Origin: a virus
Reading direction: 5' to 3' (one strand)
Length of the DNA: 64,000 nucleotides
IMG/VR virus record: IMGVR_UViG_3300036828_001020
Span: 1 to 64,000 of that record
Numbering within the stretch: position 1 is the stretch's first letter; every line of letters starts with the position of its first letter. A program made the translations under genes and the position numbers. Below, piece by piece: positions 22,054-63,141 of this stretch. The notes beneath the pieces are model-generated. The model was not told the origin of the DNA. It saw only the letters and a list, made by a program, of their open reading frames with translations, and did no database searches.

Positions 22054-22631
22054 ACGCGCTGGATGATGCGGCGCAGCCACAGCGGCTTGTCGATGCGATC
22101 GAGCCACTGGTTCTTGATAAACTCGGGGGCACGCGTCCCCTCGCCGATCTCGACAAAGGCCATACCCACCGCGGCCAGCGCCGACTTGTTCTGCCAGATC
22201 ATCAGCCCGGAATGCAGGTTGGCGGCGTAATAATCGCACTGCGGCCCGTAAAAGCTCGCCAGGACGTCGATGTCCTCGTGGCGCTGCACCAGGTCATGGC
22301 CGTCATTGACCGGATCGTGGATGGTTGCGCCGTAGACGCCGATCGGCCGCTTGCGCACGATGCCGACGGCGCACCAGGTCACCGAGAAATCGGGCAGGTT
22401 GGGCGGCTCGGGCTGGTAGCGCGGGCGCACCAAAGTGCCGTCGAGCCCGGCGACCCCGGCGACAAATTGCTGAATGTAGTCTTCGAGCGCCGGGCCCTCG
22501 AGCTGGAGTGACGTCCAGTAGCCGTGGTCGAGCCCATAGGCGCCGCTCGTGTCGAGAACAAATTGGTCGGTGCGGCCCGGCTGCAGGTAGCCGGCCTGCG
22601 AGGAGTCGCGCGCCTGGTTGGGGATCGTCAT
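21951..22631 (-). CDS. Neck / tail terminator-like protein
   Basis: 226 residues. WCAVGIVRKRPIGVYGATI and QRHEDIDVLASFYGPQCDYY look like the tail-terminator (gp12-like neck) proteins that precede DUF3383 sheath genes. Position between head-completion protein and sheath supports this. Confidence 0.65.
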   Translation of the reverse strand: MTIPNQARDSSQAGYLQPGRTDQFVLDTSGAYGLDHGYWTSLQLEGPALEDYIQQFVAGVAGLDGTLVRPRYQPEPPNLPDFSVTWCAVGIVRKRPIGVYGATIHDPVNDGHDLVQRHEDIDVLASFYGPQCDYYAANLHSGLMIWQNKSALAAVGMAFVEIGEGTRAPEFIKNQWLDRIDKPLWLRRIIQRVYPVLNILEAAGTVTADPGTYTASFDTDKVSPAE

Positions 22632-23011
22632 TGCGACGGCGCGTCCTGCGCCAGGGTCGAAGAGAGCTGAGCCTCGACAAACCCGGCGCCATATTCGCCG
22701 AAATCTCTGACCTCAACGACGATATATCGGTTGCCGCGGTAGAGCACGACATCGGGCTGAAAGCCGGGCGAGGCCTGCTGCAATCGGTACGTGGTCACAC
22801 AGGTCAGCGTCTTGCGGCCATGCTCATAGTCGCTTTGCCGCACCAAGCGGTTGTCGCCGGTCGGATAAAACGTCCCGTACTTGCCGCGAGCGACGACCTG
22901 TTCGGTAGCCGAGCGGCCAAACTCGGTGATCGTCTCGGGCCGGCGCAGCACGTCGAAGCGGCTGGCAAACGGATCGCTGACCGGGATCGGAGAGACATCG
23001 AGGGTCGCCAT
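22628..23011 (-). CDS. Head-tail joining protein, putative
   Basis: 127 residues from ATG 23011 (MATLDVSPIPVSDPFASRFD) behind GGGAGG; a longer frame reaches 23071 without a ribosome site. Beta-rich, ends with an ATGA overlap with the next gene. Position suggests a connector or stopper; family not certain. Confidence 0.6.
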   Translation of the reverse strand: MATLDVSPIPVSDPFASRFDVLRRPETITEFGRSATEQVVARGKYGTFYPTGDNRLVRQSDYEHGRKTLTCVTTYRLQQASPGFQPDVVLYRGNRYIVVEVRDFGEYGAGFVEAQLSSTLAQDAPSQ

Positions 23012-23061
23012 CCGGCACCTCCCTTTTAATGACGGGATAAATATTATTTTGCCCGCGCGGC

Positions 23062-23096
23062 TTGTCAGCAACGGCCCCCGTTGATAAGGTTACCTT
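23062..23096 (+). promoter_or_regulatory. Shared phage promoter/operator, copy 1
   Basis: TTGTCA (23062-23067), exactly 17 nt, TAAGGT (23085-23090), with palindrome AAGGTTACCTT (23086-23096) overlapping the -10. Preceded by an AT-rich block GACGGGATAAATATTATTTT that recurs before copy 3. Drives the 23.1-24.1 kb genes. Confidence 0.75.
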
Positions 23097-23138
23097 GGCA
23101 AAGCCGGGTTTCCCGGAGCCACGAAAGTGGAGGAGAAG

Positions 23139-23309
23139 ATGATTTTGCCCGTGACCAAGGAGCAGCTCGACGAGATGGAGCAACAGCCGCTCACCAAGGC
23201 CGAGCTCGCGCGGCTGCGGCGCGAGTTCAAGAAGCAGGCCACCTTCTACGCTGATGGGTTGGGTGTGACGATCGAGTGTCGTGAGAATGATGGCCCAGGT
23301 ACGCGTTGA
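23139..23309 (+). CDS. Small hypothetical protein, 56 residues
   Basis: ATG 23139 has GGAGGAGAAG directly upstream. Helical, acidic N-terminal half (VTKEQLDEMEQQPLTKAELA), then RRREFKKQATFY. First gene after promoter copy 1, so probably early and strongly translated. Not recognised. Confidence 0.6.
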   Translation: MILPVTKEQLDEMEQQPLTKAELARLRREFKKQATFYADGLGVTIECRENDGPGTR

Positions 23310-23478
23310 ATGGCACGACGGCCAGCGCCGCCGCGTTGGAACCGCACTCGTCGCCGACGTAGACGCGTATCTTGAGGCCTCGCACCAGCGCGGCTTCTAT
23401 CTGATCACCGCGCCGTCTCTGGGTGTCGTGCGGGTGCCGCTGCGCGTCGCTCTGTTCGCCGTCGCTGAGCCAGTATGA
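23281..23478 (+). CDS. Small hypothetical protein, about 62-65 residues
   Basis: Overlaps the previous gene; GTG 23281 or ATG 23287/23290 could start it. Beta-type sequence VRVEWHDGQRRRVGTAL with no membrane segment. Ends ATGATG into the next mini-ORF, which supports translation. Confidence 0.5.
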   Translation: MRMMAQVRVEWHDGQRRRVGTALVADVDAYLEASHQRGFYLITAPSLGVVRVPLRVALFAVAEPV

Positions 23479-23546
23479 TGCATGAGGACTTCACGCCGCA
23501 TGATTATCCGGGGATCGCCGTCGCGTGTAACTGGTTCGCAGGGTGA
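23475..23546 (+). CDS. 23-residue coupled mini-ORF
   Basis: ATG 23475 overlaps the preceding stop and its own stop overlaps a GTG at 23543 (GTGA). It encodes MMHEDFTPHDYPGIAVACNW and three more residues. It is too short to assign; overlaps at both ends suggest a coupling relay for the membrane protein. Confidence 0.35.
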   Translation: MMHEDFTPHDYPGIAVACNWFAG

Positions 23547-24118
23547 TCGAGGCGGCGCTGCAGCTGGTCTCGGGGGCGGCGTCAATAGGGCGCACGATGA
23601 CTCCGGATTACCGGACATCACGCGCCCTCTCGGCCGCGGCTCTCGGGACCATTGCCGGCGATTTCGGCCTCAAATTCGCGGCTGACCCGAGGGCGACCCA
23701 CCTCCTGGTCGGCGCCGCGATGTATACGATCCCGACCGCGCGCACCCTCGCGATCCTGCTCGTTCCCCGCCTCGACCGCGACCGCGGACCCCGCGTCGCC
23801 CTGTGCGCTGCGGCCGGCGTGCTGCAGCTCGTTTTTGCGGTCGGGGCCGACATCGCGGCGACGGCCCCGGTCAATCTTCTGGCGCTCATCCCCCTGGCGG
23901 TCATCGCACTCGCCGCCGTCGGCGACGTGTCAAACGAGATGCGCACCCGGCGCCGGTTCATCTTTGTGATCGGGTGCCTGTCGGGGATCTTCGCATTTGA
24001 AACATCGGCATGGGGGTTGCTGGCAAAGGCCGCGATCTCGGATGTCGCGGCGTCCGTGTGGGTCATGTTGTGGGGACCGATCGGCTCCCAGCGGCTTGTC
24101 AGAAACCCGCGCCGTTGA
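23543..24118 (+). CDS. Multi-pass membrane protein, 191 residues
   Basis: Four to six hydrophobic segments, for example GVLQLVFAVGADIAATAP, LLALIPLAVIALAAV and FIFVIGCLSGIFAFE. The arrangement is loosely like YgjV-type inner membrane proteins, but this is only suggestive. GTG 23543 is favoured by the GTGA overlap; ATG 23597 is an alternative. Located in the cargo cassette, so a host-envelope role is likely. Confidence 0.6.
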   Translation: MIEAALQLVSGAASIGRTMTPDYRTSRALSAAALGTIAGDFGLKFAADPRATHLLVGAAMYTIPTARTLAILLVPRLDRDRGPRVALCAAAGVLQLVFAVGADIAATAPVNLLALIPLAVIALAAVGDVSNEMRTRRRFIFVIGCLSGIFAFETSAWGLLAKAAISDVAASVWVMLWGPIGSQRLVRNPRR

Positions 24119-24130
24119 TAAGGTTACCTT
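24096..24130 (+). promoter_or_regulatory. Shared phage promoter/operator, copy 2
   Basis: TTGTCA (24096-24101), 17 nt, TAAGGT (24119-24124), palindrome AAGGTTACCTT (24120-24130). The downstream GGCAAGCCGGGTTT and upstream GCGGCTTGTCAG blocks also match copy 1, so about 60 bp is duplicated. Confidence 0.75.
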
Positions 24131-24170
24131 GGCAAGCCGGGTTTACCGGAAAGATGCGGAGGTGATCAAA

Positions 24171-24383
24171 ATGGAGACTTCACGGCCCTTTGCTCGAGCC
24201 GCGAACCTTGCCGCCCGGGCCGGGCGCGCAACCGACCCTTGGGAAAGCCGACTCTTGCTCGACGAAGCCAATGAGGAGCTGGCCCGTGTCAACGCCGCGC
24301 TCCATCCGATCAAAGGGGAGGAGACTCGCAAGATACTCATAAACCTGGAGGGAACGTATTATGGCTGGCAAGAGATCCGGTAA
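24171..24383 (+). CDS. Small helical protein, 70 residues
   Basis: ATG 24171 behind a near-perfect GGAGGTGATC. Sequence METSRPFARAANLAARAGRA and ANEELARVNAALHP suggests a helical bundle. First gene of the operon under promoter copy 2 that leads to the MFS transporter. Not recognised. Confidence 0.6.
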   Translation: METSRPFARAANLAARAGRATDPWESRLLLDEANEELARVNAALHPIKGEETRKILINLEGTYYGWQEIR

Positions 24384-24732
24384 ACGTCAGCTGCTGACCT
24401 CCGCCGCCGTGGGCGTTGGGCTCGTCGGCATCCCGGCGCAGGCGGCGGTGTGGACCGAGGGCGATCGCGTCTACATGCGCGAAGCCGGAACCACGACCGA
24501 GGTCACCGCCACTCCCGAATTGCTTGCCGCCCTACGTGCGGTCGGCGGCAAGGCCAAGCTGCCGAGCGACCCCAAACTGATCATGTCGGGGGGCGGGGGT
24601 GCCGCTTTTAGTCTCGATCCGTTCGATCTTGTCGGCAAAGTCCGCGATGCATTGATCGGGCAAAAAGAAAAAAAGGGGCGACCCCAAACTGTGCCAACCA
24701 AAGACCCGCCAACCAATGAGGAACACAAATGA
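24361..24732 (+). CDS. Hypothetical protein with N-terminal export-like segment, 123 residues
   Basis: ATG 24361 behind GGAGGGA. N-terminus KRSGKRQLLTSAAVGVGLVG then IPAQAA is basic plus hydrophobic and could be a signal peptide, though weakly hydrophobic. The rest is a small beta/alpha domain with a Gly run and a charged tail. Second gene of the transporter operon. Confidence 0.55.
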   Translation: MAGKRSGKRQLLTSAAVGVGLVGIPAQAAVWTEGDRVYMREAGTTTEVTATPELLAALRAVGGKAKLPSDPKLIMSGGGGAAFSLDPFDLVGKVRDALIGQKEKKGRPQTVPTKDPPTNEEHK

Positions 24733-24962
24733 ACACAGCCACCTATGCCTTGCCGGGAACTCCGCTTGCCGCACATAGCGCGGTGATCAAGCGGGCTCTC
24801 GATCGCGCCGTCCAGGTGCGGGCTAGTGACATCAACCCTCCCGGAAACTGGATAACCGGCGCCATGCTGCCGCGCATCGACGGCAGGATGACCTATGACA
24901 AGGACGCCGTGATCCCCGTCAGCGGACCGCGCATGTTGTGGGTCGGCGGCAACGGCCCTTGA
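24729..24962 (+). CDS. Hypothetical protein, 77 residues
   Basis: ATGA overlap with the previous gene fixes the start. No Cys, no membrane segment; ends RMLWVGGNGP. Size and place upstream of a Cys-rich protein and a transporter would suit a small substrate peptide, but nothing in the sequence proves it. Confidence 0.55.
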   Translation: MNTATYALPGTPLAAHSAVIKRALDRAVQVRASDINPPGNWITGAMLPRIDGRMTYDKDAVIPVSGPRMLWVGGNGP

Positions 24963-25412
24963 ATGCCGACGACACTCTGCCCGAGCGCCCGGCCGGTCGA
25001 CGACATGCCGGGCGGCTTGGCGGTCTTTGCCGTGGCCGCCGGCACGCCAGAAGAACCGAGCGCTGAATACCTGCCCGAGGCGATCCCGATAACCGCCGCG
25101 ATGCTGGAAACGATGGCGCGCGGCCCGATCGAGGTCGGCGAGGTGTTTCGTTTCACCAAACAATGTCGCGAAGAAGCCTGTCGACAATGGGACGAGAAGG
25201 CTCATGCGTGCAGCCTGATCGACCGATGGGTTGCGGCACTCGACGTTCCCGCCGAGACCGCTTTGCCGCGTTGCGCTATCCGCCAGAATTGTCGGGCATG
25301 GCACCAACTCGGAGCGCGGGCCTGCCGCAGTTGTCACCGCGTGACTTCGCAATGGATCACCGGCCTCGATGAGCCTCTTGCAAAAGTCGACTTGGAAAAA
25401 CTGTATTTATAG
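24963..25412 (+). CDS. Cys-rich protein next to the transporter, 149 residues
   Basis: Starts two bases after the previous stop. The C-terminal half has a dense Cys pattern: KQCREEACRQW, HACSLI, LPRCAIRQNCRAWHQ and ACRSCH, eight Cys in about 75 residues, suited to an iron-sulfur cluster or zinc. Similar Cys arrangements occur in uncharacterised bacterial proteins near secondary-metabolite or peptide loci (memory, not checked). Overlaps the MFS gene by 44 nt, indicating a functional pair. Confidence 0.65.
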   Translation: MPTTLCPSARPVDDMPGGLAVFAVAAGTPEEPSAEYLPEAIPITAAMLETMARGPIEVGEVFRFTKQCREEACRQWDEKAHACSLIDRWVAALDVPAETALPRCAIRQNCRAWHQLGARACRSCHRVTSQWITGLDEPLAKVDLEKLYL

Positions 25413-26607
25413 AGATCCGCTGCTCGGCAACGGCAGTTATCGCATCTTGCTGTTGACCGGGCTGTTTTGGGGTACCGCGAGCAGTCAATTGACGTTGCTG
25501 GCCGTGGTGTTCCGCCAGCACGGGTTTAGCGACGCGCTAATCGGCTGGACCTTTACCGCGCAATTGGCTGGGCTCGTCGCCTCGAGCCTATGGAGTGGCT
25601 GGCTGATCACCCGCATCGGCGCCACCCTTGTGATGCTCGCTGGTCTGGCGACAGGCCTGATGTCGATGGTCCTGCTGCCGGTGAGCGGGATTACCCCGGG
25701 GCCGACACTCCTACTTAGTCTGATCCGCGGTGTCTCCGGCGGGTTGCTGCTCACGGCCGGTCTTACCCTGGCCCAAAGTGCCGCGGCCGAAGACGATCGC
25801 GTGCGGGCGCTCGGTCTGTTTAACGCATGCTTTCTGCTGCCCGCACTCTATGGCCCAGCACTCGGCGAGTGGACGTTGCGGGCGTGGGGTGATGCGGGAT
25901 TTTTTCTGGTTGCCTGCATTCCGGCAGCCATCGGTCTGCTGCTGATGTTGCGCTACCCGCCCAGCGATCGAGCCGCACCTAGCACGGTTGGATATCTCGC
26001 CTTGCTGCGCGATCGCCATATCTGGCTGCCCAGCGTGGCGATGGCGGCCGCCGGGCTCGGCTACATCTTTGCCTATAGCTTTTTGGCGCTGCTGCTGACC
26101 GATGCTTTGCAAACGCCGGTCGCGTGGTTTTTTGTGCCGTTTGCGGCCGGCATGTTTGGTACGCGGTTTTTCGGATTGCGCCATCTGCAGCGCTTGCCGG
26201 CGTGGTTGCTAACGGGCCTCGGGTTGCTCAGTTACGGGGTCGGGTTCGGATGCCTCGCAGCAGCCCCGGCTCACGCTATTGTCGTGCCGGCCGTGGCGGG
26301 CGCGCTGTTTGGTTTTGCCTATGGGGTGACGGGTCCAGCGGCGACGGCATGGGCCTGCGCCCCTTATCCTGCTGGCGAGGCGAGCCGGGCCCGGCCAATC
26401 GCGCTGACCGGTGCGAGTTTTCAATTGGGCGCGGTCATCTCGGTGCAGGTTGCCGGAGCGCTGTTGCCGATGATTGGTTGGTCGGGTGTCCTGACGGTCC
26501 TCGGCGCCCTGGCCGCCACGGTCTTTCTGGTCGTTATCTACCACGGTGTTTCCGGCATGCGCCGGCGATTTTCGCCGGGCGCTCTCGACCCCCGACCGGG
26601 CGTCTGA
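25369..26607 (+). CDS. MFS transporter
   Basis: 412 residues with about twelve hydrophobic helices and an MFS-type loop (SGWLITRIGATLVMLAGLAT) between helices 2 and 3. Length is right for the family and the frame is intact. Substrate cannot be read; drug or small-molecule efflux are common for such proteins. A full MFS carrier inside a phage structural region is highly unusual and marks 23.1-27.2 kb as cargo. Start ATG 25369 overlaps the Cys-rich gene. Confidence 0.85.
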   Translation: MSLLQKSTWKNCIYRDPLLGNGSYRILLLTGLFWGTASSQLTLLAVVFRQHGFSDALIGWTFTAQLAGLVASSLWSGWLITRIGATLVMLAGLATGLMSMVLLPVSGITPGPTLLLSLIRGVSGGLLLTAGLTLAQSAAAEDDRVRALGLFNACFLLPALYGPALGEWTLRAWGDAGFFLVACIPAAIGLLLMLRYPPSDRAAPSTVGYLALLRDRHIWLPSVAMAAAGLGYIFAYSFLALLLTDALQTPVAWFFVPFAAGMFGTRFFGLRHLQRLPAWLLTGLGLLSYGVGFGCLAAAPAHAIVVPAVAGALFGFAYGVTGPAATAWACAPYPAGEASRARPIALTGASFQLGAVISVQVAGALLPMIGWSGVLTVLGALAATVFLVVIYHGVSGMRRRFSPGALDPRPGV

Positions 26608-26702
26608 TCGGCTCGCATCCCCATACGTGCTAAGCTGTCGTCGGCGCCACCCCCCCCGGCGCCAAGCTGGCGCTGCTCCCGTAGCGGGGAGCGGTGCAGG
26701 CG

Positions 26703-26726
26703 CACCGGCGGCCCCCACCGCCGGTG
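26703..26726 (+). terminator. Hairpin after the transporter gene
   Basis: CACCGGCGG pairs with CCGCCGGTG around a 6-nt loop, followed by TTTC. A second hairpin (GCTCCC-GTAGC-GGGGAGC) lies just before. The pair could end the transporter transcript; the T-run is short. The stem runs into the parS site. Confidence 0.4.
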
Positions 26727-26740
26727 TTTCACGTGAAACA
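26725..26740. promoter_or_regulatory. Perfect parS (ParB-binding) site
   Basis: TGTTTCACGTGAAACA is an exact match to the 16-bp consensus parS palindrome bound by chromosomal ParB in most bacteria. It lies 25 bp upstream of the HTH gene. Chance occurrence of a given 16-mer in 64 kb is about one in tens of thousands, so it is very likely functional. Confidence 0.85.
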
Positions 26741-26765
26741 GTGCGCACCAGTTGCGGGGGGCAAC

Positions 26766-27230
26766 ATGCAATACACGATGATCCAGGCGGCCAAGGCGGC
26801 TGGTCTATCTAAATCGACGGTCACCCGGGCGGTCAAAAGCGGTAGGCTTTCCGCCACCCAGAACGAGCTCGGCGTGATGGTGATCGATGCCGCGGAACTC
26901 CATCGGGTCTATCCGCCAGTGACGCAGCGCAATGGTGCAGACGAGGAGCCGCCTGGTGCAGCCGGGCGAATTTGGACCGGTGCGCACCAGGTCGATCCCG
27001 CCCTCGAAGCCCTGTTGCGCGAGAGATCAGAGCGCATCGCCGAACTCAGTGCGCGCCTCGAGGAGCAAGACGCGACGATTCGGGCCGAGCGCACCGTGAC
27101 CGCCGAGACGATCCACGATTTGCGAGCCCGGCTGGATGCCGAGCAGGCCGAACGCCGCGAGCTGACGCTGACCTTGCGGATGATCGGAGCCCCCGCCAAG
27201 CGGCGCTGGTGGCGCCTCTGGCGCCCCTAA
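26766..27230 (+). CDS. Helix-turn-helix protein with coiled-coil tail (plasmid-type)
   Basis: Start ATG 26766 gives MQYTMIQAAKAAGLSKSTVT with RAVKSGRLSATQNELG, a MerR/excisionase-like winged helix common in plasmid-borne DNA-binding proteins of alphaproteobacteria. Residues about 75-140 form a long coiled coil (ERSERIAELSARLEEQDATI). 154 residues. The gene directly follows parS, and its stop overlaps the stop of the converging neck gene. A role in replication, partition or plasmid maintenance is inferred. Confidence 0.75.
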   Translation: MQYTMIQAAKAAGLSKSTVTRAVKSGRLSATQNELGVMVIDAAELHRVYPPVTQRNGADEEPPGAAGRIWTGAHQVDPALEALLRERSERIAELSARLEEQDATIRAERTVTAETIHDLRARLDAEQAERRELTLTLRMIGAPAKRRWWRLWRP

Positions 27231-27721
27231 CCCTCGTCGCGGATTACCCAGGTAATCGAGCGCAGCAGCGCTCCTGTGTCGATCAGCGGCGTCGCATCGG
27301 CCGGGGTCATCGCTTTGCGCCGGTAGCTGCTCCCCGGCGTGCGGCGTCGTCTTCGGGCCACTGTAGCGGGCGCCAGGGGCGGTGGGATGCCGGCCTGGAT
27401 CGTCGCCTGCACCGAGTTGACAGCGATGATGCCGGCGCGGCCCAAGGCGGTGTCGACCGCCGCCAAGTCGCCGGCAAACGCGGCTTGCCCGGCCTTGCGC
27501 AATTCCGCCGAGATCGCCGGCATCGCGGCCTGGACCCCAGGGGTCAGAAACGGCCGGGCAGGGATATTGCGCGCCGGCGAGCCAAATTCGTGGATATACC
27601 CCAAGGCGGCATTGCCGATCGGGTCGCCCGAACGCGGGTTCTTTTCTTGCGGAATGCCGATCAGCAGCCGCTTGCGGGCGAGCGCCTCGATTGCGCGGGC
27701 AATGTCGTCAGGACCCGGCAC
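27227..27721 (-). CDS. Head-tail connector, HK97 gp10 / virion morphogenesis-like
   Basis: The conserved core is LLIGIPQEKNPRSGDPIGNA, then YIHEFGSPARNIPARPFLTP, typical of gp10-like neck proteins. The start is uncertain: GTG 27721 is the best placed; the frame is open upstream to 27976 but Gly/Cys-rich there. About 164 residues. Lies between DUF4054 and the cargo cassette. Confidence 0.7.
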   Translation of the reverse strand: MPGPDDIARAIEALARKRLLIGIPQEKNPRSGDPIGNAALGYIHEFGSPARNIPARPFLTPGVQAAMPAISAELRKAGQAAFAGDLAAVDTALGRAGIIAVNSVQATIQAGIPPPLAPATVARRRRRTPGSSYRRKAMTPADATPLIDTGALLRSITWVIRDEG

Positions 27722-27831
27722 AGCAGCGCCTGCCGATCGGGTGCCTGCGCCGGCGGCGCCCCCGGATGATCCGCCGCCGCAGCGCTGACCGGCGGCCGCG
27801 CAGCCGCCCCCCTCTTTGGCGCAACCTGGGC

Positions 27832-28374
27832 TCAGAGAGCACGATACGCCAGCCCGGATGTGCCATAGGGGTAATATTTGAGCCCCGAGACCCCGTAGAA
27901 TGGGCGATAGCGGAAGAGGCGATATTGCGCGGTGGCCTGCCAGAAGCTGAGGCCATATTGGGTCTGCGCATACCATGCGGCACTCGCCGGCAGACCGTCG
28001 AGCCCGCCATACCCGACGCTGACCGGGCCCACCGCCTTGTTGGTCATGCGGCCAGGCGTCCCGGCCCCGGTGCCCGGCGGGCCGCCGATCTGGGCCAGGT
28101 GCGCGGTCATCATGTAGAGCAAGCGCTCGCGCTCGCCGCCGACCGAGGCGTCACAGACCGGGCTCGAGCAGCTGTTATCCAGGTAGATTGTCGCGTCGTA
28201 GAACAGCTCCTGTGCCAGTGCGGGTGAGACGGTGATCGTCCCCGACCCGGCAAATTCCGAGTAACGCGTGCTCCACCGGCCATAGTCGAATTGCACAACG
28301 CAATCGTCGACCGGCGGCACCGGGATCAGCGGCGGGCACTGGCACGGGGTGCAGCCACAGGCGCAGGTGCTCAC
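27832..28374 (-). CDS. Neck protein (DUF4054-like)
   Basis: 180 residues. YGRWSTRYSEFAGSGTITVS, LLYMMTAHLAQIGG and TQYGLSFWQATAQYRLFRY fit DUF4054 head-completion proteins. An odd N-terminal extension, MSTCACGCTPCQCPPLIPVP, puts five Cys in twelve residues, like a metal-binding tag. ATGA overlap with the upstream gene. Confidence 0.75.
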   Translation of the reverse strand: MSTCACGCTPCQCPPLIPVPPVDDCVVQFDYGRWSTRYSEFAGSGTITVSPALAQELFYDATIYLDNSCSSPVCDASVGGERERLLYMMTAHLAQIGGPPGTGAGTPGRMTNKAVGPVSVGYGGLDGLPASAAWYAQTQYGLSFWQATAQYRLFRYRPFYGVSGLKYYPYGTSGLAYRAL

Positions 28375-51672: not shown

Positions 51673-52088
51673 GGCAGCCCTCGCGGGGGGTCGAGGCTCG
51701 AAATCATTTTTAGGACAAAAGGCGAGCTTGTCAGCCGAAAAAATATTCCCGCCCGCCGCGAGTCGGCACCCACTAAATATTGATTATTTCCAAAAATTGG
51801 CCCGGGAAATTCGCCGGTCTTCGCTACCCTGGCGGGTGTGTTGAAACTGCTGCCGGATTTCCGGCGGATCGGCTCGGGTCACTTTCCACAATTTTTTATT
51901 ATGCGACAAATCCGGCAACCGCCGCGCGAGGTTAAATCAACCGGTGCAATATTGTGCCGGCACCGGGTCACCATCGCGTCACGGCACCTCGTTAATAATT
52001 AATCGGGTTGACGCAGGGGAGATTATGTCAGGAATATTACCCGGGACCGCTTCTCAGGAACGACAACAAAAAAGGGGGCGATCGGGGA
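51673..52088. promoter_or_regulatory. Divergent intergenic region with AT-rich and palindromic elements
   Basis: No gene seen. Contains CTTTCCACA (51882-51890, DnaA-like) next to ATTTTTTATTATG, a palindromic CCGGTGCAATATTGTGCCGG area near 51940, and TTAATAATTAA near 51990, followed by TTGACG. Suits a divergent, regulated promoter for the nuclease and XRE genes. Confidence 0.45.
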
Positions 52089-52766
52089 GTGACCACGACG
52101 CGCAGTGGTGGCGGCACGTTCCGCCGCGTCGAGATGATCCGCGCCGAGCTTGGGATGTCGCCGACCGAGTTTGCCCGGGCGATCGGGCTGTCGCCGCAGC
52201 GCTATGCTCGGATGATGCGCGAGGGCTCGATGCCGCAGCTGATCAAATTGGCGGCGCATGGTTTGGCCGCCCGCCGCCGCTTTGAGCCCGACCAGACATT
52301 TTTGGTGCGGATCATTGGAGGGCTCCCCTCGGTGATGATGCTCCAGCAGCTGCACACGACGACGATCCGCGGCATGCTCTATGCGCTGGTGCCGCTCGTT
52401 CATAGCCTATCGGAAGCGGCCGAGCAGGCCGCCCCGGAAACGGTCGGCCAAACCCGCGACAGCCCCGCCGCCGGCTCGCGGCACAAGCAGATCATCGATC
52501 GTGTCGTCGGTCTGCTGCGCTCCCATCGTTGCGACGGGGGCGAGCAGCGGCCGGCCGAGCTGCTCGACGCGCTGGAGGCCGAGGGCGGCTGGTTTGACCA
52601 GGCTCAGCCGCGGGCTCAGCGGCTGACCTATTTGACCGGGATCTTGTGGCATGAGCAGCGCCGCCCCGATGCCCGGCTGGCCGTGCACCAGCGCGGTCAC
52701 TATAGGTTGGCCAATGGCGAGCTCGCCGGCGACGACGACGATGACGACCTCAGCGAGGAGGACTAA
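52089..52766 (+). CDS. XRE-like helix-turn-helix protein, 225 residues
   Basis: VEMIRAELGMSPTEFARAIG and LSPQRYARMMREGSMP form a HTH near the N-terminus; a helical middle and an acidic Asp tail (DDDDDDLSEED) follow. GTG 52089 chosen after GGGGAG; the frame is open further upstream. Likely a regulator of the right-hand operons. Confidence 0.65.
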   Translation: MTTTRSGGGTFRRVEMIRAELGMSPTEFARAIGLSPQRYARMMREGSMPQLIKLAAHGLAARRRFEPDQTFLVRIIGGLPSVMMLQQLHTTTIRGMLYALVPLVHSLSEAAEQAAPETVGQTRDSPAAGSRHKQIIDRVVGLLRSHRCDGGEQRPAELLDALEAEGGWFDQAQPRAQRLTYLTGILWHEQRRPDARLAVHQRGHYRLANGELAGDDDDDDLSEED

Positions 52767-53192: not shown

Positions 53193-53975
53193 TTAAGCGG
53201 CTGGTCGGGGATCTGCGGGCGGCGGCGGTGGTGCGTCGTCGCGCAGATCAAAGATCAGCTTGGTTCGATCACCGGACGCCCGATCAATCAGCCAGGCCAG
53301 CTTCTCCTCCTCGCCGCTCGCGGCACTGTCGGCGCGGTTGGCATTGACGCGCTTCATGCCGACATGCAGCTCATACTGGCGGATCGTGCAGAAGCGGGCA
53401 TAGACGCTGCGGCTCTTGCCGGGCACGCTGGCGTCAGGGAAGGCGACTATTCCATCGATCTTCTTGCCGCCGGCAAAGGTGAACAGCATCAGCTGGCCGT
53501 CGTCATCCTCGAGCTCGACGCCGGTTTCCTCGATGTCGGCATGGGCACAAAGATCACTCAGCGCTGTTTTGTCGGCCTCCGGCCGCAGATGCCATGCGAA
53601 ATCGCTGTCGGCAGCTTCACGCATCCGCCCCAACAGCTCGCGAGCCTGGCGCTGCTCGCCGCCGGACAGCACGTCGATATAGCCTGTCAAATCGTCGAGC
53701 ATTGCGATCCGCGCGGCGGCGCGGGCCGCAGCCCCCTGCTCGTCATGGACCGCCCGCCAAGCGGAGCGCCAGAGCACTGTAAGCAGTTCGTCGGCAGCGT
53801 TAGCGACACCCCAAGTAATCGGATCGCCATGGGCCAGATCAAGAAACGAGGTGAGACCTTCCAGCGAAAAGCCGCCTCGACCGTCCTTGCCTTTGATGTA
53901 TTTCCGAACTTCGGTTTTGACCCGCGGCAATAGGCGGGTGGAATAGCTAGGTAGTCTGCCGCGGCCTCCGCTCAT
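53193..53975 (-). CDS. Hypothetical protein coupled to ParB-like gene 2, 260 residues
   Basis: Start ATG 53975 (MSGGRGRLPSYSTRLLPRVK) inside the 3' end of the ParB-like gene, 29 bp overlap. Helical with TGYIDVLSGGEQRQARELLG and VYARFCTIRQYELHVGMKRV; Pro-rich tail. Probably acts with the ParB-like protein, in the position of a replication or partition partner. Not recognised. Confidence 0.6.
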   Translation of the reverse strand: MSGGRGRLPSYSTRLLPRVKTEVRKYIKGKDGRGGFSLEGLTSFLDLAHGDPITWGVANAADELLTVLWRSAWRAVHDEQGAAARAAARIAMLDDLTGYIDVLSGGEQRQARELLGRMREAADSDFAWHLRPEADKTALSDLCAHADIEETGVELEDDDGQLMLFTFAGGKKIDGIVAFPDASVPGKSRSVYARFCTIRQYELHVGMKRVNANRADSAASGEEEKLAWLIDRASGDRTKLIFDLRDDAPPPPPADPRPAA

Positions 53976-54936
53976 GGTTTTTTCTCCGTGGAAATTTGAT
54001 CGATTTGAGGATGTTGACTGCGTTTTGACCGGTGGCGATGCTCGCTGCCAGTTCTGCGACGCCGCCCTTGAAGTATTTTCGGAAGGCCTCATCGATTTCG
54101 GGATCGCCGAGCCAGTTCGGCACTTCGCAGACCAGCGGGGTATTGGTGATCGCGTCGCCTAGCCGAGCGTAATCGGCGAGCATCTGAAAGACTGTCTGGC
54201 GCTGCTGCTCCTGTTGTTTGTCGCTATCGGCGAGTAAGGTGCGGGCTTCTTCAAAGCTGATCTCGGCGCGATCGACTCGCTCGGCCATTTCAGGAGCCTT
54301 CTGACGCAACAGCGCCATGCCCTCGGTGCGCCACTCTTTTTGCCGCTTGCGCCCCTGCGCGGTTTTGTAGGCGGTATCGAGCGCTTGGCTGTTGGCCATG
54401 ATCTCATCGACCAGCTCCGGCGCGTACTCGATGACCAGCTCGGCTTCGCTGATCCGCTGATGAGGAATGCCACCAGCGCGCGCCAGCCCGGAATGGCTGA
54501 ACGGATTTTGGGGCGGCCCCTTACGGGCCTTCTCTGCCGGATCCGGCAGAGTAAAGGCCGAGGGTGCATCGCGCCGCATCAACGCGAGCGTCATGGCGAT
54601 CTGGCCGGTCGACATATGCCGGCGTGAGATGTTCTCCGAAATCGCCAACCGCACGATCTTGGTCAGGTCCTCGATGCGCTCAAAGCGCGGCTCTATCCCC
54701 GCGAGCTGGCACGCCCTAAATCGGCTGCGTCCGTCGATAATGCCCTCGACCACGTCCTCCTCGCTGATCATCTCGGCCAGCAAGATCGGATGTCGCAGCC
54801 CATTGGCTTTGATGTCCGCGGCCAGATCGGCGAGTTCGGGCTCGGTCATCATCGGGAACAGCGCGGCAATCGGATGCACCGGCAGATCGGCGACCTCTGC
54901 CGGCGGCTCGGCTAACAACGCAGGCTGATCGTTCAT
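53947..54936 (-). CDS. ParB-like partition/regulatory protein 2
   Basis: 329 residues. LPVHPIAALFPMMTEPELAD, LRHPILLAEMISEEDVVEGI, IIDGRSRFRACQLAGIEP and LAISENISRRHMSTGQIAMT are ParB N-terminal boxes 1-3 plus the start of the HTH domain. The catalytic-type GRSRF box replaces GERR. Similar plasmid-type proteins handle replication or partition. Whether it binds the canonical parS at 26.7 kb is unknown. Confidence 0.8.
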   Translation of the reverse strand: MNDQPALLAEPPAEVADLPVHPIAALFPMMTEPELADLAADIKANGLRHPILLAEMISEEDVVEGIIDGRSRFRACQLAGIEPRFERIEDLTKIVRLAISENISRRHMSTGQIAMTLALMRRDAPSAFTLPDPAEKARKGPPQNPFSHSGLARAGGIPHQRISEAELVIEYAPELVDEIMANSQALDTAYKTAQGRKRQKEWRTEGMALLRQKAPEMAERVDRAEISFEEARTLLADSDKQQEQQRQTVFQMLADYARLGDAITNTPLVCEVPNWLGDPEIDEAFRKYFKGGVAELAASIATGQNAVNILKSIKFPRRKNHERRPRQTT

Positions 54937-54942
54937 CGCCGA

Positions 54943-55524
54943 TCACGCCACATGCGGCTGGCCGCCTTTGGGCCGGTTGCGGCTACCTGGCGGGCGGCCG
55001 CGCGGGCGTTTGCTGCCCGGTTCGGGAACCCGGCTCTGGGCCAGCATCTCGGCACCTTGGTGCCAGCCGCTATCCCACACCTGATAGAGCAAGGTGCCGG
55101 GCGACCACGGGTTGCCATCGCGGACGTAGCCATGCAATCCGGCGGTGTGCCCGGCGTCGCTGACCCGGCGTCGCTGGTGCTCGCTGACCGCGGCGGTGTC
55201 GTGCCCGTTGGGCGCACCACCGGCCGGCGCCTCGGCCTCGGTGAAGATCGTGGTCTGAAAGCCGACGGGCTTCCCCAGCCACTCCATGTTGCGGCGAAAT
55301 TCGGCGTCCTCGGCCTCGCGCATGTCGCCCGATTTTTCGGCCTCCTTGCGGGCGCGATCAAAGGGCCCGAGCAGAAACCCCGCCCCCTTGATGCGGGCGC
55401 GCAGATCCTTACGAGCACCAACCGCCTCGGCGACCAGCGCGTCGGCGGCGGCGTAGGCGTCGTAAAATTCGAGATAGGTAGAGCGAGTGACGTTGCCGCC
55501 ACCGGATGAAGTTGGCTCTGGCAT
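54943..55524 (-). CDS. Hypothetical phage protein with RMF-like region and AT-hook tail
   Basis: 193 residues. SGAGHTAG-type segment (SDAGHTAGLHGYVRDGNPW) and SPGTLLYQVWDSGWHQGAEM resemble ribosome-modulation-factor/CrpP-like sequences; the end KRPRGRPPGSRNRPKGG is an AT-hook. Coiled N-terminus. First gene of the ParB-like operon. Nucleic-acid binding likely. Confidence 0.6.
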   Translation of the reverse strand: MPEPTSSGGGNVTRSTYLEFYDAYAAADALVAEAVGARKDLRARIKGAGFLLGPFDRARKEAEKSGDMREAEDAEFRRNMEWLGKPVGFQTTIFTEAEAPAGGAPNGHDTAAVSEHQRRRVSDAGHTAGLHGYVRDGNPWSPGTLLYQVWDSGWHQGAEMLAQSRVPEPGSKRPRGRPPGSRNRPKGGQPHVA

Positions 55525-62100: not shown

Positions 62101-62338
62101 CCCGCTTTATCTCGGTCGACGGCCACGTCTACAAAATCGCCGAGGATGTAGATCTGTTCAATGTGACGATCATCAACAGCAAAGGCCTGGTGATCGCAGG
62201 GAAAATCTTAGAGCCAACGTCCCCCGACAACGTGTCGGAAAATCTTACAGGTTCGGGCGACCCTGCTGATGACGCATCAACGGCTTAGAATAAAGCGACA
62301 AGGGCTTAGGCAAAAAGCGCCTGTCGGAAAATTTTACA
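62059..62338 (+). repeat. Three copies of a TGTCGGAAAA-TTTACA motif
   Basis: GTGTCGGAAAACTTTACAGG at 62059, GTGTCGGAAAATCTTACAGG at 62232 and TGTCGGAAAATTTTACA at 62322. Two lie at the 3' ends of genes, one between genes. Confidence 0.65.
62097..62288 (+). CDS. Small hypothetical protein, 63 residues
   Basis: ATG 62097 overlaps the previous stop (ATGA). MTRFISVDGHVYKIAEDVDL and NVTIINSKGLVIAGKILEP; ends VSENLTGS..., similar to the end of the previous protein. Confidence 0.5.
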   Translation: MTRFISVDGHVYKIAEDVDLFNVTIINSKGLVIAGKILEPTSPDNVSENLTGSGDPADDASTA

Positions 62339-62433
62339 CTCGGTCTTTGCCGTGTCCGCCGACCCCGCAGAAACTCTATGGTGGCTCGTTTCTTGCTCAT
62401 AAAGCAATTAAATCAATTACCCAGGAGCTTGCC

Positions 62434-63141
62434 ATGATCAAAGAATTTCTCGCCGGCGTTGCCCTGACATTTGGCATTTTCACACTTGCCGGTGCGGCGC
62501 AAGCCGTGCCCTGCAGCGGCACCACGACAACCCTTGCCAATGGCAATTCGGTGGCCGCCTCGTTTCTGGTCGGCGCGGGCGGTGCCTCGACCGGCAATTG
62601 CGTGGCCGCGGGCGACAAAATCTTTGGCGCCTTCTCGACCTCGGGGGCCATCACCAACACCGGGAGTGCGAGCTTCTCGTTCTTTATGACGCCGGGCAAT
62701 GTGACGATCGGCTTTGCCGGGGTCGTGGCACCCAGCTCGGTGGGCGGTATAGACTATGCGGTGGCGGTTGATCCGGCCTTGGCCAACGGCTTTCAAATCG
62801 ACGATTTGCAAAAGGACTTCACGCTCAACGCCAGCGACGGCGGGCTCGCAGCCAGCGCCACCTTGACCGGGTTCACCACGCCGGCCTCGATCGACTTTAG
62901 CTGCACGCGCACGGTCAATCCGACAACCTCGAGCTGCCCGCAAACCGCATCCTTTAGCCCGGTTACCGGCGATCTCGACGTCAACCAGACGATCACCACC
63001 GGCGCCAATGCGATCGTTACCGCATTGACCGACACGATCTCACAGACCCCAGCGGCGGTTCCCGAGCCGGCCTCGCTGGCGATCCTCGGCTCGGCACTGG
63101 CCGGCATGGGATGGCTGCTCCGACGCCGGCGGCAAGTCTAA
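62434..63141 (+). CDS. PEP-CTERM secreted protein, 235 residues
   Basis: Signal peptide FLAGVALTFGIFTLAGAAQA and a C-terminal VPEPASLAILGSALAGMGWL plus LRRRRQV: the VPEP motif, membrane helix and Arg cluster of PEP-CTERM sorting signals, processed by an exosortase in EPS-making bacteria. Middle is a Gly/Ala/Ser/Thr-rich beta domain. ATG behind CAGGAG. A phage-encoded PEP-CTERM protein is unusual; presumably uses host exosortase. Confidence 0.85.
   Translation: MIKEFLAGVALTFGIFTLAGAAQAVPCSGTTTTLANGNSVAASFLVGAGGASTGNCVAAGDKIFGAFSTSGAITNTGSASFSFFMTPGNVTIGFAGVVAPSSVGGIDYAVAVDPALANGFQIDDLQKDFTLNASDGGLAASATLTGFTTPASIDFSCTRTVNPTTSSCPQTASFSPVTGDLDVNQTITTGANAIVTALTDTISQTPAAVPEPASLAILGSALAGMGWLLRRRRQV

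Follow-up and report, generated by a model that had tools for sequence, protein, structure and literature searches.

Why should a tailed phage carry a perfect copy of a bacterial centromere? ParB-parS is the best conserved bacterial centromere system, and an exact 16-bp palindrome, TGTTTCACGTGAAACA, with no mismatches to the universal (i.e., chromosomal-type) parS, lies within the phage DNA that we analysed (the window, bases 1-64000 of a 69,179-base IMG/VR record classed as linear). A preliminary description had placed an exact consensus parS at 26725-26740, 25 bp before a gene, and we found that position, sequence and spacing all agree, with the palindrome ending 25 bp ahead of the ATG at 26766. 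It is the sole match at up to 3 mismatches in the 64-kb window, the whole record holds one copy, and about 0.8-4.5e-6 exact copies per window are expected under Markov models of order 0-4. The window parS is a real, non-random feature. The site and the features that bear on it are as follows:

23072-27230, no strand: cassette of about 4.1 kb, between a tail-side gene (22628-23071) and a head-side gene (27227-27976)
25369-26607, plus strand: MFS transporter gene (PF07690, phrog_2034), upstream of parS in the same cassette
26703-26726, plus strand: GC-rich hairpin CACCGGCGG-CCCCCA-CCGCCGGTG, its last 2 bp being also the first 2 of parS
26725-26740, no strand: exact universal parS, by sequence match; the same 16-mer occurs in genomes with related prophages
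26741-26751, plus strand: GTGCGCACCAG, directly 3' of parS, a possible operator of the HTH protein
26751-26765, plus strand: inverted repeat GTTGC-GGGGG-GCAAC, abutting the start codon and covering the presumed ribosome-binding site; a possible autoregulatory operator
26766-27230, plus strand: 154-aa protein with a MerR-type winged HTH, a disordered linker and a 64-residue coiled-coil helix (AlphaFold model, Foldseek and profile searches)
52008-52766, plus strand: HTH_3 (cI-like) candidate repressor, by profile match
53947-54936, minus strand: ParB-like protein P0002, with a ParB_N-type domain and a DGRSRFRA box, by profile search

The window encodes a contractile-tailed, myovirus-type phage, with a portal, large terminase (TerL), head maturation protease, major head protein, sheath, tape measure, and baseplate J and hub genes, together with RecT, an O-like replication protein and the HTH_3 protein, whose presence as a candidate repressor suggests a temperate or carrier lifestyle. 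No tyrosine (PF00589) or serine (PF00239) recombinase was recognised in this possibly incomplete record, and an integrase could be missing from the contig because the 69-kb record is classed as linear. A near-identity search of the phage collection with window 20-34 kb returned no match. We also observed that the product of 62269-63141 ends in a C-terminal PEP-CTERM sorting motif (PF07589, over the cut-off), which is unusual for a phage, and that a 193-aa ORF beside the ParB-like gene (54943-55524) weakly matches ribosome modulation factor (PF04957) towards its C-terminus.

Does the phage bring its own proteins to this site? The preliminary description had seen no obvious ParA, which a search for ParA-type ATPases bears out: PF13614 was absent from the phage and matched the control in 14 of 14 cases. 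It had also counted three ParB-like proteins, of which we could recover one, P0002, lacking a recognisable ParB HTH domain. Its ParB_N match is weak (24.9 bits, under the Pfam cut-off), HTH_ParB (PF17762) had no match in the phage (a divergent HTH being possible), and a single-sequence fold prediction of the protein reached a pLDDT of 45. As far as sequence can tell, the phage appears to have no complete P1-type ParABS, with neither ParA nor canonical ParB recognised.

The site is, on the other hand, at home in the likely hosts. Using the major head protein we gathered relatives from 137 loci in IMG/VR and 14 in GTDB genomes, mostly those of Rhizobiales and other Alphaproteobacteria. Since 13 of the 14 genomes with related prophages carry parS (at most 1 mismatch; reversed control 0), often at several sites per contig, parS is a chromosomal site in plausible hosts, as judged from relatives. 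At such sites ParB-CTP loads and then spreads (PMC12704722), and plasmids can be stabilised by a single parS plus par genes (PMC7022226).

Among 50 whole viral records of relatives, parS (up to 2 mismatches) was present in 7 and the reversed palindrome in none, while 15 permuted palindromes gave one match in 1.3 Mb, a rate that predicts 0.14 for the relatives' 2.79 Mb. One additional prophage is positive as well. Absence of the motif from close relatives, which the preliminary description had named as counting against its reading, was therefore not what we saw, though most relatives (43 of 50, many of them fragments) have no site. The positions are mostly non-homologous. In G099 an exact parS lies between a stop codon and a terminator; in the closest relative, G051, it follows a stop codon and is directly followed by a GC-rich hairpin, whose loop is CCCCCA as in the window; in G062 it falls within a primase-like gene, where it is read as VSRET; in G088 it lies between genes; and in G050 (locus L134) a 1-mismatch site sits inside that phage's own copy of the HTH-coiled-coil gene, which is 34% identical to the window's and occupies a different genome position. 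Finally, G096, G098 and a Bradyrhizobium oropedii prophage contig (the prophage with an exact parS) have parS or near-parS at one shared locus, with TGTTTCACGTG intact, about 40-60 bp before an orthologous gene (31-37% identical). This repeated gain, together with conservation of the core, points to selection.

The same 16-mer recurs well beyond these relatives. Exact parS was found in 286 of 50,697 isolate-phage records, kin included (e.g., 87 Listeria records), so that related isolates represent few events; a reversed palindrome of the same composition was found in none. It also occurred in at least 120 IMG/VR stretches (control palindrome, 1), which we weigh less than the isolate data because IMG/VR contains some host DNA. 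We do not claim that the sites on all such contigs are viral centromeres, given G035 (L089), a 117-kb 'viral' record with 24 parS-like sites, mostly TGTTTCACGTGGAACA, which is possibly an actinobacterial chromosome misfiled as a virus, or a provirus flank. Positive isolates include Ruegeria DSS3P8, Gordonia Hello (Woes group), Arthrobacter Nubia, Lactobacillus Harbinvirus, the phi29-like phages B103, Goe1, BSP11 and Chedec 11, Clavibacter CMP1 (site close to its left end), Vibrio phi 3 (site within the terminal repeat), Bacillus vB_BcoS-136 (four sites within 1 kb) and Microbacterium Shotgun (site in an HTH protein's linker). Isolate records with an exact parS include NC_073370.1 (L213), KT870145.1 (L214), GQ241246.1 (L218), KP280063.1 (L221), MH884508.1 (L222) and PQ006099.1 (L255). 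Some isolate phages have 3-6 sites, some of them in terminal repeats or early regions, and an inovirus has about five.

The examined stretches of isolate parS phages showed no ParAB annotation, and 45 of 49 unrelated exact-parS viral contigs encode no ParB_N protein and would therefore rely on the host. Escherichia and Klebsiella, whose phages are numerous in isolate collections and whose chromosomes are not known to have ParABS, are absent from the ten commonest genus names among parS isolates, a pattern that would fit ParB as the cause of viral parS. Within the literature that we searched, no paper describing host-type parS across phages was found, and its breadth is apparently undescribed so far. 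Two further groupings were observed among the viral contigs. At 11 loci (L021, L029, L031, L044, L068, L085, L095, L099, L103, L121 and L122) an intergenic parS precedes, by about 20-140 bp, a gene whose product has 482-488 aa, and these loci probably belong to a single viral lineage that keeps parS at a conserved promoter; three small contigs (L019, L046 and L055) carry 3 to 5 exact parS within about 1 kb, as centromere-like clusters.

Because of the enrichment over controls, the presence of the 16-mer in likely host genomes, the failure to find ParA or a canonical ParB in the phage, and the repeated gain, a host-ParB site is well supported, and we consider it very probable that the window parS would be bound by host ParB. 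This part of the earlier reading stands; the choice it offered between hitchhiking, a switch and a decoy is not settled by sequence.

The surroundings of the site bear on that choice. Measured between the matches to the flanking tail and head genes, the gap is about 260-330 bp in relatives L132, L135 and L138 but 4.1 kb in the window, which is why we regard the MFS gene, parS and the HTH gene as an acquired cassette. The downstream gene had been described as a plasmid-type HTH/coiled-coil gene, and both halves of that label were upheld: an HTH plus coiled coil is predicted, and full-length homologues occur on small plasmids, most of them alphaproteobacterial (mainly Paracoccus, Sulfitobacter, Sphingobium and Phaeobacter), usually adjoining rep in the eight plasmids that we opened. 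NCBIfam likewise gave a weak match to a 'plasmid replication DNA-binding protein', while a single-protein search of viral_contigs found no relatives. The AlphaFold model has the layout of RacA and pSK1 Par (proteins of segregation or anchoring), i.e., a coiled coil after a MerR-type winged HTH, and in Foldseek its HTH matched BldC, RacA, NmlR and pSK1 Par. However, the matches are confined to the HTH domain and membership of either group is not established: those to 5i44 and 8csh span 45-50 residues of HTH (E 0.005 for RacA, 0.18 for pSK1 Par), PDB profile matches to the two are weak (E 0.36 and 0.85), as is the NCBIfam RacA match (E 0.018, residues 7-39), and the PDB profile and NCBIfam searches revealed no full-length homology to either. 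One further copy of GTGCGCACCAG exists in the window, at 26980-26990 within the linker of the HTH gene, which is the region where L134 has its parS-like site. The idea that parS generally accompanies this gene was rejected, as the site is absent, within 3 mismatches, at the eight plasmid homologues; such a rule is also contradicted by the other parS-bearing viral contigs that have no such gene.

Our preferred reading, held tentatively and at somewhat less than even confidence, is that the main purpose of the site would be that of a functional parS, loaded with host ParB and maintaining an unintegrated phage genome. The host's ParB, rather than a phage ParB, would load on the 16-mer as a CTP-dependent clamp; spreading clamps would link the phage DNA to the host's ParA gradient and/or SMC; and the unintegrated genome (a plasmid prophage or carrier state) would thereby be positioned in the cell and divided between the daughter cells. 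The neighbouring RacA/pSK1-Par-like protein may contribute a further partition or copy-control function to the acquired maintenance cassette. Against this reading, the parS is single in the window and the 43 relatives mentioned above have none. For many parS-bearing isolate phages segregation seems pointless, since we take these phages to be lytic. Nor is stable hitchhiking obviously tolerable in an alphaproteobacterial host, because plasmid-borne parS is toxic in Caulobacter, cutting viability 100-1000 fold, with a harm from extrachromosomal parS that scales with ParB affinity (PMC5815017).

Maintenance through host ParB would have a precedent in phi29, which Spo0J (ParB) carries into spores (Meijer et al. 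2005, as cited in PMC9437464). In both cases a phage genome would exploit host ParB to travel with the chromosome (for phi29, into the spore), and we found here a host-type parS on a phage without its own ParA/ParB pair, as the phi29 type implies. The two differ in that phi29 is a podovirus of a spore former, whereas the window phage is myovirus-type with a probably non-sporulating proteobacterial host, and its parS sits within an acquired cassette, next to the gene for a plasmid-type DNA-binding protein. By analogy, the window case may work like phi29/Spo0J, in a different phage type and with a RacA/pSK1-Par-like neighbour. The phage-plasmids P1 and N15 and mycobacteriophage parABS bring both ParA and ParB of their own, and their centromeres are phage-specific. 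They share with our proposal the partition of an unintegrated phage genome, but the window phage has neither ParA nor canonical ParB, and its parS is of the universal host type. SGI1, which exploits the parABS of an IncC plasmid, is similar as a mobile element using another replicon's ParABS; unlike the window phage it targets a plasmid rather than a chromosomal system, and it is not a virus (PMC10954446).

Alternatively, the site could act as a transcription switch, in which ParB at parS represses the HTH-coiled-coil gene until it is titrated by replicating phage DNA or until CTP or ParB levels change. We think this unlikely, though it draws on several observations: the promoter-proximal position of the window site, the three relatives with a conserved core ahead of one orthologous gene, the bias of viral parS towards intergenic positions (38%, compared with 7% for random positions of the same contigs), and Pseudomonas aeruginosa, where ParB represses the genes adjoining the intergenic parS3 and parS4 (PMC7022226). 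However, sites inside genes or past stop codons by terminators, as in other relatives, are a misfit for an operator, and no promoter-like match was found near the window parS.

It is improbable, in our view, that the site is a decoy, i.e., that many parS copies on replicating genomes titrate ParB away from oriC, so that segregation or division of the host suffers to the benefit of the virus. This reading stays alive because extrachromosomal parS kills or impairs Caulobacter, and it would suit presumably lytic isolates with sites in early or terminal-repeat regions; it sits poorly with a phage that has a candidate repressor and plasmid-type genes, and disrupted segregation offers little evident gain within one burst cycle.

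A similarly slim chance attaches to the phage's own ParB-like protein as the ligand, in a phage ParB-parS pair. In its favour is co-occurrence, with ParB_N proteins encoded by 4 of the 7 relatives that have parS and by none of the 43 others (Fisher p 1.5e-4); moreover, in G098 a complete canonical ParB, the sole canonical one among those read, is encoded about 2.4 kb away from parS. Yet these proteins are heterogeneous (one is a large fusion and others are ParB_N-only), most unrelated parS contigs have none, and in the window the protein, with no detectable HTH_ParB domain, lies 27 kb from parS. Finally, the palindrome is very improbably an operator of the neighbouring HTH protein with an accidental likeness to parS: plasmid homologues do have their own repeat motifs just upstream, and L134, a second phage homologue, has its near-parS inside the gene, but those plasmid homologues have no parS, no HTH-coiled-coil homologue was found near the site in the other six parS-bearing relatives, the GTTGC/GTGCGCAC repeats by the ATG are better operator candidates, and the chance of an exact parS is about 1e-6.

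Many viruses, then, probably borrow the host chromosome-sorting machinery. Whether host-type parS is widespread and convergently acquired in tailed phages, inoviruses and microviruses, most of them without a recognisable ParB, with the ParB-CTP clamp broadly recruited across lytic, temperate and chronic lifestyles for positioning, protection or takeover, we regard as an evenly balanced question, here judged from sequence. If phages do repeatedly evolve an exact parS without ParA or ParB, chromosome segregation machinery would be a general viral host factor, an idea that could be tested in the window phage and its relatives as well as in Ruegeria DSS3P8, Vibrio phi 3, Clavibacter CMP1, the Gordonia Woes group and Lactobacillus Harbinvirus. 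If true, parS would be a sequence marker for unintegrated maintenance, and the use of parS on a contig as a label of chromosome origin would be a questionable assumption.
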